Source: an uncultured Ruminococcus sp.
Lineage (GTDB): Bacteria > Bacillota > Clostridia > Oscillospirales > Ruminococcaceae
Reading direction: 5' to 3'
Assembly (NCBI GenBank): GCA_902786965.1
Contig: CADAEJ010000012.1
Coordinates: forward strand, 1-32,902
Length of the DNA stretch: 32,902 nucleotides
Below, piece after piece: positions 26,020 through 32,582 of the stretch (position 1 is the stretch's first letter; every line of letters starts with the position of its first letter). Made by a program: the position numbers and the translations under genes. Below the pieces are notes generated by a model, which was not told where the DNA came from, did no database searches, and saw only the letters and a list, made by a program, of their open reading frames with translations.

Positions 26020-27261
26020 CTATGTCATTTCCATGCCATAGCTTTCTGCTTCGTCTTCGTCTACATCATTATCGTTCATATCCATCTCATTGACAGGTGT
26101 CTGACTCTGAATGATCTGTGCAAGTCTGTCTATCCGCTGTCTTAACTCGTGAGATATCATTTCCATACGCTGAGCATCGACATACTTTTGTGTTCTTGGA
26201 TCAGACATAACCGAGCTGAAAACATCTTCTATCCCTTCGAGCTTTGAAAGGTCAAGCCAATCAAATGAAGTCACCAATTTAAGCTGTTCGCTGTGAGTCT
26301 TTTTAAACGGTTTGCACTTTATCTCATCTGCTAAGAACTGAAATGTCTGCCTGTCATACCACAGAGATGTTCCATTATCAAATAGTGGTGCAGCACCAAG
26401 CCATTCAAGAGTATCGGGATCACGGAGCAGACCAAAGTTTCCGAAATGCCTGTCTTCATTGGCGATAATATAGTCAAAAACTATCATTCTGTCAAGCATT
26501 GGTACAATATCGATACCAAGTTCCTTGCAGATATTCACCACATGGAGATACTCATTCTCGTTGTTCTCTTTTGGTCTTATCTGCAAAAGTCTTGCCGCAC
26601 TGATAAGCTCTGTGTGCTTGGTCACAAAGTTTTCGCAGGCACTGTACGGCTTGTCGTCTATCCACATCAGGGTATATGGTATATGATCGATACCGAGCTT
26701 GTCAAGGATAGCTGATGCAATGACTTCGTTGAACGGCTGCTGTCTGTAAGGCTTTGAGCCTGATTTGAACAGGCAGCGTTTCCCGTCGATTATCTTCCAG
26801 CGCTTCTGCAGATTTCCGTCGGAAGTGTTGTCCGGTGAAGAGTAGTCGAAGCTTATACTTTTGACAGTTGTTCCGAAAAGAACGTCACCGATGTCGTCGG
26901 AAAAATCGTTGTCAAAAAAGTTGACGCTTTCCCATGTCATATCATTGCCCACAGGTCTTACCCAGTAGTGATCTGAAAGACTCAGACCGAGACACTTTGT
27001 CAGCAGCATCTGTGAGCTGTGTATACCAAGCGTTTCAAGAGCATCATTGATTCCCATTCGGCTTGCAGGGATAGATCTTCCCGTCCACCATTTGTTCAGC
27101 GCCGCTTTATCTACGGTTTCTTTATGCCTAAGCGGGTGAACGACACCGATCGGGAAATGTTCCTGTGCCATAACATTATCAATATTCAGAATAACGCCGG
27201 TATCCTCGTCTATCTCAACATCGGCAACGCAGGTATTCTTGTGCATCAGGGTATATTTCAA
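26020..27261 (-). CDS. HipA-like protein kinase without a HipB partner
   Basis: 413 residues from a TTG at 27261 (reading MKYTLMHKNT), which follows the strong site GAGGTGAG; the longer open frame extends into a structured leader. The kinase core is HipA-like: KRCLFKSGS (ATP-binding Lys and glycine loop), QPFNEVIASAILDKLGI, the catalytic loop ANEDRHFGNFGLLRD (Asp and Asn) and the metal motif APLFDNGTSLW. The C-terminus is very acidic (NEMDMNDNDVDEDEAESYG). HipA toxins are normally paired with a HipB antitoxin; neither neighbour encodes a HipB-type HTH protein. Solitary HipA-domain kinases are common in Firmicutes, and their targets are mostly unknown. A good promoter lies at 27361-27389. Confidence 0.87.
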   Translation of the reverse strand: MKYTLMHKNTCVADVEIDEDTGVILNIDNVMAQEHFPIGVVHPLRHKETVDKAALNKWWTGRSIPASRMGINDALETLGIHSSQMLLTKCLGLSLSDHYWVRPVGNDMTWESVNFFDNDFSDDIGDVLFGTTVKSISFDYSSPDNTSDGNLQKRWKIIDGKRCLFKSGSKPYRQQPFNEVIASAILDKLGIDHIPYTLMWIDDKPYSACENFVTKHTELISAARLLQIRPKENNENEYLHVVNICKELGIDIVPMLDRMIVFDYIIANEDRHFGNFGLLRDPDTLEWLGAAPLFDNGTSLWYDRQTFQFLADEIKCKPFKKTHSEQLKLVTSFDWLDLSKLEGIEDVFSSVMSDPRTQKYVDAQRMEMISHELRQRIDRLAQIIQSQTPVNEMDMNDNDVDEDEAESYGMEMT

Positions 27262-27300
27262 TGTGCTCACCTCGATCCTATCAGAAATGATTAATTGCAA

Positions 27301-27344
27301 GGGCATTAGAGTAGCTGTCAAATGACGCAGACAGGCTGATGCCC
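27301..27344 (-). promoter_or_regulatory. Structured leader of the HipA-like gene
   Basis: In the leader between promoter and start, GGGCAT (27301-27306) can pair with ATGCCC (27339-27344), and inside it CTGTC (27315-27319) with GACAG (27330-27334), giving a two-step hairpin. It has no T run, so it is not a terminator. It may affect mRNA stability or translation. Confidence 0.5.
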
Positions 27345-27459: not shown

Positions 27460-30378
27460 TTAGATAGAGTTTTTGGCAATATCTGCAATGTGGTTGTCTG
27501 GTACGACACCCACGCCGCCGAAAGCTGTTATCGAGTTTGCTGCTTTTGTTTTAAGATATGTTTTCTGTTCGTCAGATAGCTTAGGTGTTTTCAGCTTGCC
27601 ATTGATGAGGAACAGCGGAGCTTTGTTCAGTGCTGCGTAAACGCCGCCTGCGAGTGCGTCTGGGAAATCCATACCTGTTGCAACGCAGAGCATATCACCA
27701 TTGAGAACATCAGCAAATTTCTCGTTGACTGCTACGCAGGTAGCGAATCTGTTTGCGCCTGCGATACGTGTTGCCTTTGAAAGACTAAGTGCCTTAGCAG
27801 CTTTGTTCATCATATCATCGCTGATAACTCCCGAGCCGCCGATGACATAAGCTGTTTTGACATTGCCCTTGACAGATTCAAGATACCTTTTAGTTGTGTT
27901 GTCAAGTTCACCTTTGGTATTGAGGTAGATTATCGGTGAACCTTTTATCGCTGCAGCTGTGCTTGCCGAAAGTGCATCTGCAAAGTCAAATGCGTAAACG
28001 AAGAACACCTCACTCGGAGCTTTGCCTGAAACAGTCTGCATCTTTTCTGCGATCTTAGTTGCTGTTTCAAATCTCGTTGAACCTGCGATCCTTTCAACTT
28101 TCAACGATTTGTCCAGAAGAGCTTTTTCAACATCTGCGCTTATCGCTCCCTCGCCGCCGAGCAGGAAAACATTTTTTGCTTTTATTCGTTTGATCTCATC
28201 AAGAGTTTCTTGCGGCAGGTCATCTTTATTAGTGAGCAGGATAGGCGCACCCAATGCGTTTGCCAGCGGAACTCCTGCAAGTGCATCGGCGTAATTCATA
28301 CCGCAGGCGATAACTACATTATCCGAAAAAGGCGTAGATACGCTTGAAATGTTTGCAGCAGTTTCATAACGGTTTTTGCCTGCCAATCGGTATATGTCTT
28401 TTACGCTCTCGTCCTTTGGCAAAAGCTCGGTAGTGGTCTTTCCGCAAACTGTGCAGCTTCTTTCTTTCAGCCCGAACTTTGATGCAGTCGGCTTTTCTGT
28501 AACTTTCCAATCGCTCCAGCTGTGCTGTGCTTTGGAAACCGATCTTGAAATGGTGAGTCCGCAGTGTTTACAAGTCCTTGAATCAGAACCCAATTTGGTG
28601 CAGCTTGGTTTTTCGGTCTGTTTCCAGTCGCTCCAGTCGTGCCCGAGAAGATCGGTGAAATTGTCCTTGAATTTTTCGCTGCACTTTTTGCAGGTGTGCA
28701 GATCGTAACCGAATTTCAAACAGGTCGCAGGGACTTTTTCCACCGAGTAATCGTGCTTGCACTCCTCAAGCAGAACGTACTTGAAACCGTTGTCCTTAGC
28801 GTATCTCTCGCCCTCGGTGTCCTTGTAGCAGTAGATAGTGAAGTCGGTGTATTTTATGGCTTCATTGTCCCAACTATAACCGAAAGCACAGTCACCTATG
28901 CGTGTAACGCTTTTTGGGATCTTTATACTTTTAAGTTTTTCACAGTCGAGAAATGCGGAGTACTCGATTTCTTTTAAGCCCTCATACAGCGTTACGCTTT
29001 CAAGCGACCTACATCTTGAAAAGGAGCGATGACCAATAGTTTTAATGTTTTGTGGTATTTCAATTGTTTTAAGTGATTGATTCTGGTTTAGTGAAGAATA
29101 GCTCAATTCCGTGAATAATGGATTGCATGAAAGCTCAATAGTTTTAAGATTATCACATCCACATATTGAGCTTTGACCTATATATGTAACACTATCCGGA
29201 ATAATTATATCTTCTAATGATGTGCATCCACTAAATCCAACAACACCGATACTTTCAAGTTTACATGGCAATGAAATATTTTTCAGTTGGCTGCATTTAT
29301 AAAAACCAAATTCATCGATCTCTTTGACTGTTTCAGGTAAGAATACATATTCAACGGTATCATTACAATCAAACATATATTTACTAATTCTGATTACACC
29401 CTCTGGAATATAACATTCTTTTTCATTCGGCGTTAATGCAAGCTCTGTCATTTCTTTATTGAAAACAACTCCATTTACACTAACGTAGTATGGATTATCT
29501 TTGCTTATATTTATCTCATCAAGTTTTTCACAGCCTGAAAAACTTGATGGATTTAGTGTCTTAACTCCGCTCCCTATATTTACGCTCGTAAGGTTGGTAC
29601 AGTTGCCAAAAGCTGTATCCTCAACCGTTTCTACATTATCAGGGATAGTTATTTCAGATAGATTTTTATTACCATAAAAAGCTCTACTATCAATAGTTTT
29701 AACACCTTTACCGATCTGCACCGACCACAGATTGCAGTCCAAAAATGCAGATGATCTAATAGTTTGCACACTATCTGGAATAATTATTGATGTGAGCTGT
29801 GAGCAGTTGGTAAATGCATTCCAGTCAATTATTTCTACGCCTTCGGGTATATTAACTTTCCAGATATCTGCATACCAAAAAGCGCTTTTACCTATTATTT
29901 TTACCGTTTGTGGTATCGTTACTTCACCTTTGCAGGTCGCTGCATCTACAAGAATATCATTTATTATAACAAACGGGCTTATCTTTCTCTGTTCATCAAG
30001 CCATTGGGTTCCTTTAAATGGATTATGACCTATATCCGTTACACTATCAGCTATGGATACTTTTTCAAGATTAGTACAACCGTTAAAAAAATCATGTGGA
30101 ATACTTGTTATACCATTTTCTATTACTACTGATCTTATTGAAAGATTATTTACAAATGTATTATCATCCCAAAAATAGCGTATTTCTCCCGTACCGCTTA
30201 TAGTCAGTTTTCCGTTCTCATCAAGTGTCCATGTAGCGTTATCATCGAGTGTTCCCGATTTGGCTTCTGCACTTGCAGTAAAGCTGAACAGTTTTGTCAG
30301 TGTTCCGCTTGGCAGGGCTGCAGCTCCTGATAATACCATACAAATGCAGGTCAGAAATGAAATGATCCTTTTCTTCAT
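27460..30378 (-). CDS. Secreted BspA-type LRR protein with cysteine-pair repeats and three CWB2 repeats, downstream of a tethered sigma factor
   Basis: 972 residues. ATG 30378 follows AGGAG by 7 nt and lies 20 nt after the sigma-factor stop, so the two form an operon. Signal peptide at 1-38 (KKRIISFLTCICMVLSG, ending ASA). BspA/LRR_5 repeats run about 45-530, the longest set in the window. Residues about 540-655 hold Cys-pair repeats (PATCLKFGYDLHTCKKCSEK, SCTKLGSDSRTCKHCG, ERSCTVCGKT) separated by H(D/S)WSDWK units. Three CWB2 repeats start at about 664 (RLAGKNRY, RIAGSTRF, RIAGANRF). The last repeat is almost the same as in the 360-2438 protein (NEKFADVL, GMDFPDALAGGVYAA, DNHIADIAKNSI). The LRR part is more A/T-rich than the CWB2 part. 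It is the likely target or partner of the sigma factor upstream. Confidence 0.93.
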   Translation of the reverse strand: MKKRIISFLTCICMVLSGAAALPSGTLTKLFSFTASAEAKSGTLDDNATWTLDENGKLTISGTGEIRYFWDDNTFVNNLSIRSVVIENGITSIPHDFFNGCTNLEKVSIADSVTDIGHNPFKGTQWLDEQRKISPFVIINDILVDAATCKGEVTIPQTVKIIGKSAFWYADIWKVNIPEGVEIIDWNAFTNCSQLTSIIIPDSVQTIRSSAFLDCNLWSVQIGKGVKTIDSRAFYGNKNLSEITIPDNVETVEDTAFGNCTNLTSVNIGSGVKTLNPSSFSGCEKLDEINISKDNPYYVSVNGVVFNKEMTELALTPNEKECYIPEGVIRISKYMFDCNDTVEYVFLPETVKEIDEFGFYKCSQLKNISLPCKLESIGVVGFSGCTSLEDIIIPDSVTYIGQSSICGCDNLKTIELSCNPLFTELSYSSLNQNQSLKTIEIPQNIKTIGHRSFSRCRSLESVTLYEGLKEIEYSAFLDCEKLKSIKIPKSVTRIGDCAFGYSWDNEAIKYTDFTIYCYKDTEGERYAKDNGFKYVLLEECKHDYSVEKVPATCLKFGYDLHTCKKCSEKFKDNFTDLLGHDWSDWKQTEKPSCTKLGSDSRTCKHCGLTISRSVSKAQHSWSDWKVTEKPTASKFGLKERSCTVCGKTTTELLPKDESVKDIYRLAGKNRYETAANISSVSTPFSDNVVIACGMNYADALAGVPLANALGAPILLTNKDDLPQETLDEIKRIKAKNVFLLGGEGAISADVEKALLDKSLKVERIAGSTRFETATKIAEKMQTVSGKAPSEVFFVYAFDFADALSASTAAAIKGSPIIYLNTKGELDNTTKRYLESVKGNVKTAYVIGGSGVISDDMMNKAAKALSLSKATRIAGANRFATCVAVNEKFADVLNGDMLCVATGMDFPDALAGGVYAALNKAPLFLINGKLKTPKLSDEQKTYLKTKAANSITAFGGVGVVPDNHIADIAKNSI

Positions 30379-30398: not shown

Positions 30399-32231
30399 TC
30401 AGTAAATTGGCAGCGAGTTTCTTTTGTTTGCGGCACTCTTATCTGAGTTGAGACGTGTGAATGATGTTGGGTTTGAGCGGATATAATCGACAATTGAAAG
30501 CTCTGCTGACTTGGGGATATTCCTATTGAGCAGTACCAGATTATCAAGGTCGATCTTGCTTTCAGCGTCTTGTGTCAGCCCGAAAGAAAAGCCGCCGTAG
30601 ATCGGTGCGTCCGATGAACCGATAACGATCTCTGTGCATCTCTCAACAAGCACTCCGCCACGCCCGCTCTCACGTTCCCTGTAAATATATCCCTGTGTGC
30701 TGACCTCGCCGTTTTTAGTGGGGAACGGGTTGAGCCCGTTATAGCTGTCATAAGCATTTGCCGAGCTGTAATTGTGTCGGTAGCTTAGCCAGCTTGTTAT
30801 GTAATAACAGCTATTTTGCGATTTGTTTATCTTCTTTGTCGGCAGCATAAAGACGTAGATATCGTCCGACTGATCGGTCGTTCCGCCATCGTAATAACAG
30901 AAATAGCCTCCTGCCGGCAGGTAGTTGTTTTCTGTAAATGAGAATATATCATTGGTCAATGTATTTATATTGGCTCGTTTTAACTCTGATATGCTCCCTG
31001 CATTTCCGAGGATCGAACAATACTCACTGTCTGTTCTTGGGAAAGCCTTATTTATAACTGCCTGCTGTGCAGAGATCAGAGAACTTGGAACAACGCTGTT
31101 GATCGGTGCTTCGCTGGTGCTTGTCTGAGTTTGTCTTTGGACTTGAGGATTTTGCGGAGCCGCTGTAACTGCTTGTCGTTGACGTGTGGTTGATGCTGTT
31201 GCGGCGTTTGTTCCTATACCATTTCTGCCGGTGGTGGTTCGTGTCTGGGTTTCGCTTTCTCTGGCTGTGACCGATGTTGTGGCATTGCCGCTTGCTAACG
31301 GGTTTTGATCCTGAGGTTTTTCAGCATCGGAGATCAAAGCGTTTGTTTGCTGTGAAACGCTTTCGGATTTTTCAGAGAAATCTGATCTTTCCGTCACCGA
31401 CTGGGAAGTGGTCACAGTTTCTGAGGCACTGTTGTCAGGCAGTCTGACATCTCCAAGAGTATTGTTTCTGAAAAGCAAATGTGCATATATACCTCCGCCG
31501 ATAGCAAGTGCTGCAGCGGCAGAAACGATAACTCGCCTCACAGAAGATCCTGCAACCGCTGCTATCGTACTGCGCCCGACGAATGCTGAGCCGCCGCTAC
31601 AATCTGCTGCATCCTCAATAGCCTGCATGACCAATGGCAGCGGAACAAGCGCCAGATTCTTACCGCCGAGCGCTTTGAGCTTTTTGCTGATCTGTTTGCG
31701 TGCCTCTGTAAGTCTGTGTCCAACAGCATTCTCATTTATGTTCATTGCTGCGGCGATCTCTTTCATTCTCATGTTTTCAAAGTAAAACATTATCAGAATA
31801 GAACGCCTGTCGGGTGAAAGATCATCTATCGCCTTCCTGACTTCCATTTGTGTTTCCTTATTATCAAGGTAATCGTGAGGTACATACATCGGCTCGGAGT
31901 ATTCCTCAGCCTGTTCAAGTACGCTATCCAGTTCTTCACTCGTTTCGTAGCTGGAAAAATGATTGATCTCTTTAAAATAGTTGTTTGTGATATTGTTGGC
32001 AATAGTGTAGAGCCATACTTTGAAGGCCTCTGGACTTTTAAGATCCTTGATCTTTTCCATTGCCGTTACAAATGTATCCTGTGCAAGATCCTTTGCCTGA
32101 TCGACGTTTCCGATGCGTTTCGCAATATAGAATCTCATAGGTTCGTAGAATTCATCATATAGTTTTTCAAATGCGGAGATATCACCCTTTTGACCGGAGA
32201 TGACTGTTTCATTCAGTTCCTTTACATTCAT
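30399..32231 (-). CDS. Membrane-tethered ECF-type sigma factor with extracellular domain
   Basis: 610 residues from ATG 32231; the frame extends seven codons up to a TTG at 32252 that overlaps the ribosome site AAGGAG. Sigma-70 region 2 lies near residues 10-78 (FEKLYDEFYEPMRFYIAKR, DLAQDTFVTAMEKI, WLYTIANN) and region 4 near 125-178 (AIDDLSPDRRSILIMFYFEN, MKEIAAAMNINENAVGHRL). One transmembrane helix follows at about 233-251 (VIVSAAAALAIGGGIYAHLL). Then come a long Ser/Thr/Gln-rich linker and a C-terminal domain of about 210 residues (GGYFCYYDGGTTDQSDDIYV, CYYITSWLSYRHNYSS, GGVLVERCTEIVIG). Ordinary ECF factors are about 160-200 residues with a separate anti-sigma. Here the sensor appears fused to the sigma factor itself. 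It overlaps a 51-aa ORF upstream and precedes a surface protein gene. Confidence 0.9.
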   Translation of the reverse strand: MNVKELNETVISGQKGDISAFEKLYDEFYEPMRFYIAKRIGNVDQAKDLAQDTFVTAMEKIKDLKSPEAFKVWLYTIANNITNNYFKEINHFSSYETSEELDSVLEQAEEYSEPMYVPHDYLDNKETQMEVRKAIDDLSPDRRSILIMFYFENMRMKEIAAAMNINENAVGHRLTEARKQISKKLKALGGKNLALVPLPLVMQAIEDAADCSGGSAFVGRSTIAAVAGSSVRRVIVSAAAALAIGGGIYAHLLFRNNTLGDVRLPDNSASETVTTSQSVTERSDFSEKSESVSQQTNALISDAEKPQDQNPLASGNATTSVTARESETQTRTTTGRNGIGTNAATASTTRQRQAVTAAPQNPQVQRQTQTSTSEAPINSVVPSSLISAQQAVINKAFPRTDSEYCSILGNAGSISELKRANINTLTNDIFSFTENNYLPAGGYFCYYDGGTTDQSDDIYVFMLPTKKINKSQNSCYYITSWLSYRHNYSSANAYDSYNGLNPFPTKNGEVSTQGYIYRERESGRGGVLVERCTEIVIGSSDAPIYGGFSFGLTQDAESKIDLDNLVLLNRNIPKSAELSIVDYIRSNPTSFTRLNSDKSAANKRNSLPIY

Positions 32232-32364
32232 TCTCCGCCCACTCCTTTTCAAGCTTTGTTCTGATCTCGTTGCGCCAGTAGTTTTTTTCCTCCTGTGACA
32301 TCAGCATTTCCTGCTGCATCTGTTCGAGTATCCTTTCGATCATAATATCTATTGGTATTTCCAT
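32209..32364 (-). CDS. 51-aa charged small protein overlapping the sigma-factor start
   Basis: ATG 32364 follows GGGAG by 6 nt. The protein starts MEIPIDIMIERILEQMQQEM and ends KEWAENECKGTE; it is highly charged, probably one long helix, with no membrane segment. Its last 23 nt overlap the start of the sigma gene in another frame, a common arrangement for translational coupling. A TTGAAA-17-TATAAT promoter lies so close that the transcript would have only about 6-8 leader bases. No family recognised. A role as a partner or modulator of the sigma factor is inferred from position only. Confidence 0.7.
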   Translation of the reverse strand: MEIPIDIMIERILEQMQQEMLMSQEEKNYWRNEIRTKLEKEWAENECKGTE

Positions 32365-32377
32365 CACGCACTCCCAA

Positions 32378-32406
32378 ATTATAGCACATTAAATTCGGTT
32401 TTTCAA
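32378..32406 (-). promoter_or_regulatory. Promoter of the small protein-sigma factor-surface protein operon
   Basis: On the minus strand TTGAAA (32406-32401) and TATAAT (32383-32378), 17-bp spacer. The -35 element lies inside one copy of the repeat described at 32396-32582. Confidence 0.7.
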
Positions 32407-32582
32407 GTTCTATATATAAGATGTAACAATAAAAGAAACTTGCAGATATTTTTAGATGTAATACTTCACGAAAACCGCAGGTTGATTTTGTGCGATATGA
32501 CGAATTTCTGAAAATCTTTAAAATTAACTGCAAGTTTTTGCGTTTGTGGTGTCTTATATGCGTAACGGTTTTCAAGTTCTAA
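32396..32582. repeat. Pair of CGGTTTT(T)CAAGTTCTA direct repeats
   Basis: Copies at about 32396-32412 and 32566-32581 differ by one T. One covers the -35 of the sigma operon; the other is about 55 bp upstream of the lipoprotein start. They lie in the divergent region between the two genes and may be a shared regulator site. Confidence 0.55.

Follow-up and report, generated by a model that had tools for sequence, protein, structure and literature searches.

Our analysis points to a sigma factor built into a putative surface receptor. In the window (the whole stretch of DNA analyzed, 32,902 nucleotides from an uncultured Ruminococcus sp.), a single gene, P0001, joins an ECF-type sigma domain to a predicted membrane helix, a linker, and an outside domain. 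Its start is overlapped by a microORF, P0002, and its stop is closely followed by the gene for a secreted wall protein, P0003. At roughly even odds (a probability of about 0.5), P0001 would be a one-chain signaling protein in which the tether, an in-chain clamp, and perhaps the microprotein hold the sigma domain until an event outside the cell frees it. The sigma gene is laid out as follows.

30399..32231, minus strand: membrane-tethered (as predicted) ECF-type sigma factor P0001, 610 aa (ORF, Pfam, orthologs, hydropathy)
31665..32231, minus strand: sigma domain, residues 1-189, regions 2 and 4 (Pfam, model, dN/dS)
31596..31664, minus strand: post-sigma4 segment, residues 190-212, with the conserved Pro197 (LALVP) and a helix (alignments, model)
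31476..31532, minus strand: predicted membrane helix, residues 234-252 (hydropathy; low-confidence model helix)
31077..31466, minus strand: Thr/Ser/Gln-rich linker, residues 256-385 (composition)
30402..31076, minus strand: putative outside domain, residues 386-610, without a Pfam match and confined to the ortholog group

The frame begins MNVKELNE at an ATG; starting instead from the TTG at 32252 would lengthen the chain by 7 residues. A first-pass annotation had proposed sigma regions 2 and 4, a single membrane helix (233-251), a Ser/Thr-rich linker of about 130 residues, and a predicted extracellular domain in one chain, and each of these parts was recovered. Both sigma regions match Pfam above cut-off (Sigma70_r2, 4.7e-9, residues 29-86; Sigma70_r4_2, 1.8e-13, residues 129-181), and a score of 88.6 bits against TIGR02937 (cut-off 42.9) places the protein in the ECF superfamily. 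Residues 190-610 match no Pfam family. The single structure model has a pLDDT of 75-95 per 10-residue block in the sigma domain (42-70 for residues 91-120) and is poor beyond it (mean pLDDT 48.7, pTM 0.26). Membrane topology is predicted from one Kyte-Doolittle segment (234-252, mean 1.78, with RR just before) and one low-confidence model helix at 234-253. The linker contains 22 Thr, 19 Ser, and 13 Gln per 130 residues.

Full-length orthologs are present in RUG060 (G016, 97% identity) and Ruminococcus sp. UBA3767 (G004, 80%), that is, in 2 of 60 other relatives among the matches listed. Relative to the UBA3767 ortholog, dN/dS is 0.04 in the sigma domain, 0.40 in the linker (51% identity), and 0.22 in the outside domain. 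Together, the full-length orthologs and the low dN/dS along the whole chain rule out a chance origin, and the predicted sigma-membrane-outside architecture is confirmed as real. It is also very improbable that P0001 is a decayed or silent fusion without signaling function. The outside domain has no known match and relic-like loci exist elsewhere (L111, with a 59-aa sigma remnant, and L110, with a microORF without sigma), but the dN/dS values of the sigma and outside domains and the four open-frame genes of the same architecture in this genome argue against it.

P0001 is, judging from its relatives, a member of a Ruminococcus-centered family of sigma-membrane proteins. The 129 loci that we fetched were picked by sigma-domain match (best 80 of 129 candidates), and counts among them are not natural frequencies. 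They yielded 135 sigma-like frames, 106 of them distinct after double-fetched contigs were merged by identical protein. The sigma-membrane set comprises 92 distinct proteins of at least 290 aa with at least one hydrophobic helix, some of them cut by contig ends; 14 of the 106 frames were left out as short, cut off, or without a helix. The window's own genome has 10 sites that match P0001, several of which are ordinary short ECF genes. Four genes share the single-helix architecture: the window gene, two on contig C8, and one on C30. Contig C8 carries, in addition, a gene fused to a permease. That the genome holds four such genes and a permease fusion, and that the small ORF is a conserved partner, had escaped the first-pass annotation. 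Long sigma frames are present outside the genus too, and we looked at a few of these.

Beyond the sigma domain, the family is diverse. In the 88 proteins whose sequence allowed a cut past the helix, the outside parts formed 28 clusters. Among 29 distinct proteins, Pfam matches above cut-off beyond sigma were to LRR_5 in 2 (L082, L186), Big_14 in 1 (L179), and FtsX in 2 (L011, L132). The two proteins with an LRR_5 outside part (L082:3971-7270, minus strand; L186:4454-7156, plus strand) had no microORF that we found. The outside part of L163:852-2798 has no Pfam match and looks by eye like a solute-binding protein. Its relative L161 was rejected as an ABC-ATPase fusion: PF00005 (ABC_tran) is above cut-off but from profile position 34 onward, with no visible Walker A, and L163 continues in-sequence to the contig end where L161 switches to ATPase, so that we attribute the L161 frame to a deletion or a misassembly. 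Among the 84 complete members, 40 have a downstream ORF of 100 aa or longer that begins no more than 60 nt past the end of sigma. By manual count, 30 of these 40 encode envelope proteins: 18 ABC-transporter parts (12 ATPases, 5 permeases, and 1 assigned by eye), 7 lipobox lipoproteins (one by eye), and 5 LRR-type secreted proteins.

In 12 distinct proteins, sigma is fused in-frame to an FtsX/MacB-type ABC permease with at least six hydrophobic helices, which replaces the outside domain.

L011:5417-8686, minus strand: sigma-permease fusion on contig C8 of the window's own genome
L065, L066, L068, L069, L072, L073, L132, L147, L150, L162, L167: other sigma-permease fusions

Two of the fusions (L011 and L132) were called by Pfam and the remainder by BLAST similarity. 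They are preceded by a microORF (weak in L072), and an ABC ATPase gene, recognized by motif, follows 12 of 12, with a 4-nt overlap in 11 and 91 nt on in the own-genome case. At their junction, the fusions align with the beginnings of three stand-alone permeases encoded after single-helix sigma genes (L047, L012, L052). The same sigma-permease pair thus exists in a fused and an unfused form, and this speaks for a working link between the two. In the fusions, the hydrophobic segment after sigma directly adjoins the permease's first helix, and that segment may not span the membrane.

A second conserved element lies at the start of the operon.

32209..32364, minus strand: microORF P0002, 51 aa, of a previously undescribed microprotein family (ORF, profile, selection)
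32209..32231, minus strand: 23 nt shared by the end of the microORF and the beginning of the sigma gene (coordinates)
32378..32406, minus strand: sigma-A-like promoter candidate, TTGAAA-17-TATAAT with TG, 11 of 12 matches (consensus match just before the microORF ATG)

The 51-aa ORF had been noted upstream of sigma; it overlaps the sigma ATG and proves to be a conserved partner rather than a bystander. Its homologues, of about 35-60 aa, share an N-terminal consensus, LDELI...L.QM, that is helix-like by eye. A first profile of 9 seeds, run on 8,796 frames of the fetched loci, gave 24 matches at E < 0.01, seeds included, and 24 of 24 were upstream of sigma. A second profile was built from 25 sequences, all drawn from the genus genomes that were then scanned, and gave 46 matches spread over 22 of the 29 genomes; an internal stop interrupts 3 of the matches. 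By comparison of coordinates with the sigma matches listed, at least 41 of the 46 lie directly before a sigma match. These 41 include all 25 model sequences; among the other 21 matches, at least 16 are upstream of sigma and 5 are not. The five comprise G018:C23, without adjacent sigma; G007:C5, beside the sigma remnant of L111; G027:C26, a weak match (E 0.008) embedded in a long frame; and G019:C54 and G014:C43, without neighboring sigma among the sigma matches listed. A microORF copy without an adjacent sigma gene (L110:1444-1632, minus strand) lies opposite an ORF that looks surface-protein-like by eye and is likely a relic.

In the fetched loci (19,529 frames), 86 of 87 microORF matches at i-E ≤0.01 fall at a sigma start, model sequences and double-fetched contigs included. 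Across 394 genomes drawn from the order, the profile matched the window's own genome only, and the microprotein seems confined to the genus at the profile sensitivity used. A microORF overlaps or abuts the sigma start in 56 members of the set of 92 at i-E 0.01. At i-E 1 the count rises to 60 of 92, which leaves 32 without one, including L013 of the own genome. On a rapidly built tree covering 95 sigma domains, the microORF label, set at a looser i-E of 10, changes 10 times versus 29.4 when shuffled, and none of 500 shuffles came as low. In this tree, the window gene and its ortholog fall together with a long branch to which they are unrelated, and their placement is unsure. Furthermore, with the overlap excluded, 51 of 55 microORF pairs gave a dN/dS value; it is at most 0.64 in 49 and about 1.1 in two, the other four pairs being saturated, and the pairs are not independent. 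For the window microORF versus UBA3767, dN/dS is 0.16 (dS 0.23, dN 0.04, 44 codons). By these substitution patterns, the microORF is shown to be a selected coding gene, mostly under purifying selection.

The 23-nt overlap likely reflects translational coupling of the microORF to sigma, and a Shine-Dalgarno-like stretch for sigma is located within the microORF 3' end. These features, together with overlap as the rule in the family and a promoter-like site that in the window would give a very short leader, would be expected if the microORF were a mere translation leader that couples and limits sigma synthesis. We regard that explanation as improbable, given that the amino-acid sequence of the microORF is recognizable in distant members and that purifying selection acts outside the overlap in most pairs. 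The promoter-like site itself is only suggestive, because three such sites were found in the scanned region versus 1.5 expected; its -10 box is kept in both orthologs, and its -35 box differs by one base in UBA3767. A direct repeat, AGAACTTGAAAA(A)CCG, is also found before the operon (window 32400-32411 and 32569-32580, minus strand), kept in RUG060 and partly in UBA3767. We rejected AGAACTTGAAAA, present twice before the operon, as a promoter for the protein's own sigma domain: counts were 3+2 in the own genome, 4+2 in G016, and 2+0 in G004 versus 0+2, 0+0, and 2+1 for reversed-pattern controls, the other sites have no common layout, and we claim no regulon.

What might the microprotein do? 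The first-pass annotation had stated that no anti-sigma gene is present. This holds for recognizable families, as both neighbors of sigma (the microORF and the LRR/CWB2 gene) are below cut-off for anti-sigma families in Pfam and NCBIfam, unlike a canonical ECF/anti-sigma pair; the microORF is a candidate for such a gene. In the strongest form of that idea, the microprotein is a true anti-sigma factor, a two-helix, CnrY-like wrap made in step with sigma, and the tether only positions the complex. CnrY wraps its sigma factor with two helices (PMC7406223). The small size, the conserved N-terminus with helices judged by eye, the coding overlap with sigma (most commonly 14 nt, in 29 of 60), and the selection on most pairs are consistent with such a role. 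It is nevertheless doubtful, since no sequence relation links the microprotein to known anti-sigma factors in NCBIfam, Pfam, or the PDB, a third of the family or so (the 32 members above) has no microORF match, and the two pairs near 1.1 and four saturated pairs depart from the pattern of constraint. Specifically, 2 of 25 members is the most that any NCBIfam or Pfam family matches (best E 0.0014 and 0.0026, respectively), and the best PDB matches are calmodulins, at E 0.053 or worse. A resemblance to RsiV in 2 members (best E 0.046) was rejected as chance.

Our preferred reading, in which the tether does more than position sigma, draws on the segment that follows region 4. Pro197 of LALVP is invariant in 28 of 28 aligned sequences and at least 90% conserved in an alignment of 37. 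The only strands in the sigma part of the P0001 model are residues 115-118 and 193-196 (pLDDT about 70), from which we infer that the two pair and clamp the linker between regions 2 and 4. A loose pattern finds the post-region-4 motif in 80 of 92 sigma-membrane proteins, and the region 2-4 linker pattern P.DY is present in 52 of 92, both counts being without a chance control. At rest, the tether would withhold a cytoplasmic sigma domain from RNA polymerase, the clamp would join the region 2-4 linker (115-118) to the LALVP segment, and the co-translated microprotein would possibly serve as a small anti-sigma factor or assembly partner. One helix would cross the membrane, and a stalk would bear the outside domain, which would sense a surface condition, perhaps via the co-encoded LRR/CWB2 wall protein. 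An outside event would then cause site-1/site-2 proteases to cut within or close to the Ala/Gly-rich helix, probably by intramembrane proteolysis, and the freed sigma domain would transcribe its target genes. We infer this scheme from sequence throughout: topology, clamp, microprotein role, cleavage, signal, and targets.

Some features would suit release by proteolysis. The helix of many relatives contains a Pro (AVGVP) and that of P0001 contains Gly-Gly-Gly, either of which would weaken the helix and suit intramembrane cleavage. In Bacillus subtilis, RsiW is cleaved by PrsW and RasP (PMC10202637), and the window's own genome encodes an S2P-type Peptidase_M50 (1.2e-58) and a PrsW (1.7e-36). 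These candidate proteases support release only weakly, because M50 proteases are present in 14 of 14 control genomes and PrsW in 4 of 14. Alternatively, like the membrane-bound ToxR/CadC-type activators, the protein may act uncut, with the outside domain changing its conformation or oligomeric state and the anchored sigma recruiting RNA polymerase at the membrane. The cleavage site in P0001 is hypothetical, and for the 12 permease fusions a conformational link to transport appears no less natural than proteolysis. Still, we consider uncut action unlikely: an anchor should hinder sigma from entering the RNA polymerase-promoter complex, and the described precedents are freed or proposed to be freed by proteolysis (PMC8999054, PMC5826349). 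The one-component outside-to-promoter switch envisaged in the first-pass annotation thus retains its one-chain architecture and gains support from family conservation, mostly envelope operon partners, and, weakly, the S2P and PrsW proteases.

A sigma factor, a membrane helix, and an outside domain in one chain is an already known kind of protein. Fused sigma-membrane proteins have been described or predicted for IutY, ECF48, ECF52, ECF53, and some ECF36 (PMC8999054). ECF52, as in SCO4117 of Streptomyces, likewise has sigma, a membrane region, a low-complexity linker, and an outside module in one chain, and its release by proteolysis has been proposed (PMC5826349). P0001 shares the membrane region (by hydropathy), linker, and outside module, but its linker is Thr/Ser-rich rather than Pro-rich. 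In that account, a zinc-finger domain separates the sigma and membrane parts of ECF52, which is stated to be exclusive to Actinobacteria, whereas P0001 has no Pfam zinc finger, the zinc anti-sigma motif HxxxCxxC is found within residues 171-290 in 0 of 92 members of the family here, and a microORF is often upstream. IutY (ECF243) of Pseudomonas putida similarly has sigma fused to a membrane part and is activated by regulated proteolysis, being freed by Prc and RseP, but it carries a fused anti-sigma of iron cell-surface signaling (PMC8999054); P0001 has no such Pfam domain. ECF262 (SFB89493.1, Ruminococcus albus) is tabulated under regulatory extensions with the mechanism "others" (PMC8999054). 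The family here may be ECF262; R. albus strains hold members of it (L126, L127, L145, L155). The portion of the ECF262 account available to us mentions neither the microORF nor permease fusions (PMC8999054).

New here, within the open-access library searched, are the microprotein and the sigma-FtsX fusion, for which we found no published account. In BceAB/MacAB-type FtsX systems, an envelope ABC permease acts as a sensor for a regulator and is coupled to a histidine kinase. The fusions resemble these systems in tying an envelope ABC permease to a regulator and differ from them in that the partner is a sigma factor. If this reading is right, they would tie a transporter to promoter choice more directly than any system known to us. 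Tentatively, and with less confidence than in the mechanism proposed for P0001, we suggest that Ruminococcus has developed modular "sigma receptors," in which a constant sigma-juxtamembrane module is combined with some dozens of exchangeable outside sensors, including whole ABC permeases. One large branch would add a new microprotein regulator, and neither a kinase nor a separate classical anti-sigma factor would be involved. If so, surface binding or transporter state would be passed straight to promoter choice, many rumen Ruminococcus species would sense their surface through membrane-tethered sigma factors, commonly with several in one genome, and an unrecognized microprotein family would be their built-in partner. 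As named R. albus strains carry family members, these ideas can be tested in culture.

The wall-protein partner and a patch of the outside domain lie as follows.

27460..30378, minus strand: secreted LRR_5 and CWB2 cell-wall-binding protein P0003, 972 aa, operon partner (Pfam, gene spacing)
30594..30788, minus strand: outside-domain patch, about residues 482-546, where the window has mostly UBA3767-type residues versus the otherwise near-identical RUG060

The downstream surface-protein gene reported earlier matches LRR_5 (4.4e-100) and CW_binding_2 (4.5e-58) and starts 20 nt past the sigma stop. The order small ORF-sigma-LRR/CWB2, whose conservation had been proposed as a check, is kept in its first half by the 60 of 92 family members counted above, but a CWB2/LRR gene directly 3' of sigma is found in three orthologs only among the fetched loci. 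In L074 such a gene is one gene further downstream, and L184 and L185 have secreted-looking ORFs after sigma that BLAST groups with window-type LRR genes. A search for relatives of the outside domain, made in 393 further genomes from the order, gave just four matches, all weak (E 8e-4 to 7e-3) and one of them interrupted by a stop; we rejected these as chance.

Compared with RUG060 in 100-nt bins of the sigma gene, the window is 97-100% identical up to about nt 1400; identity falls to 85-94% in bins 1400-1600, returns to 99-100% in bins 1700-1800, and is 65-86% for the LRR part. Compared with UBA3767, the first 600 nt of the sigma gene are 83-93% identical, bins 1400-1600 are at 90-98%, and the LRR part reaches 99-100%. 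The patch and the LRR part are two separate tracts, because the stretch between them is RUG060-like. Their joint exchange fits a receptor-ligand pairing, as a single case. Against L045 and L046, the P0003 gene (27460-30378) is a mosaic, its LRR part identical to UBA3767 at the two-decimal precision of the comparison (1.00, dS 0.00) and its CWB2 part at dS 0.67; the LRR cassette is, on this comparison, a recent exchange. Downstream of the LRR gene, an ORF at window 26020-27321 (minus strand) is HipA-like by eye.
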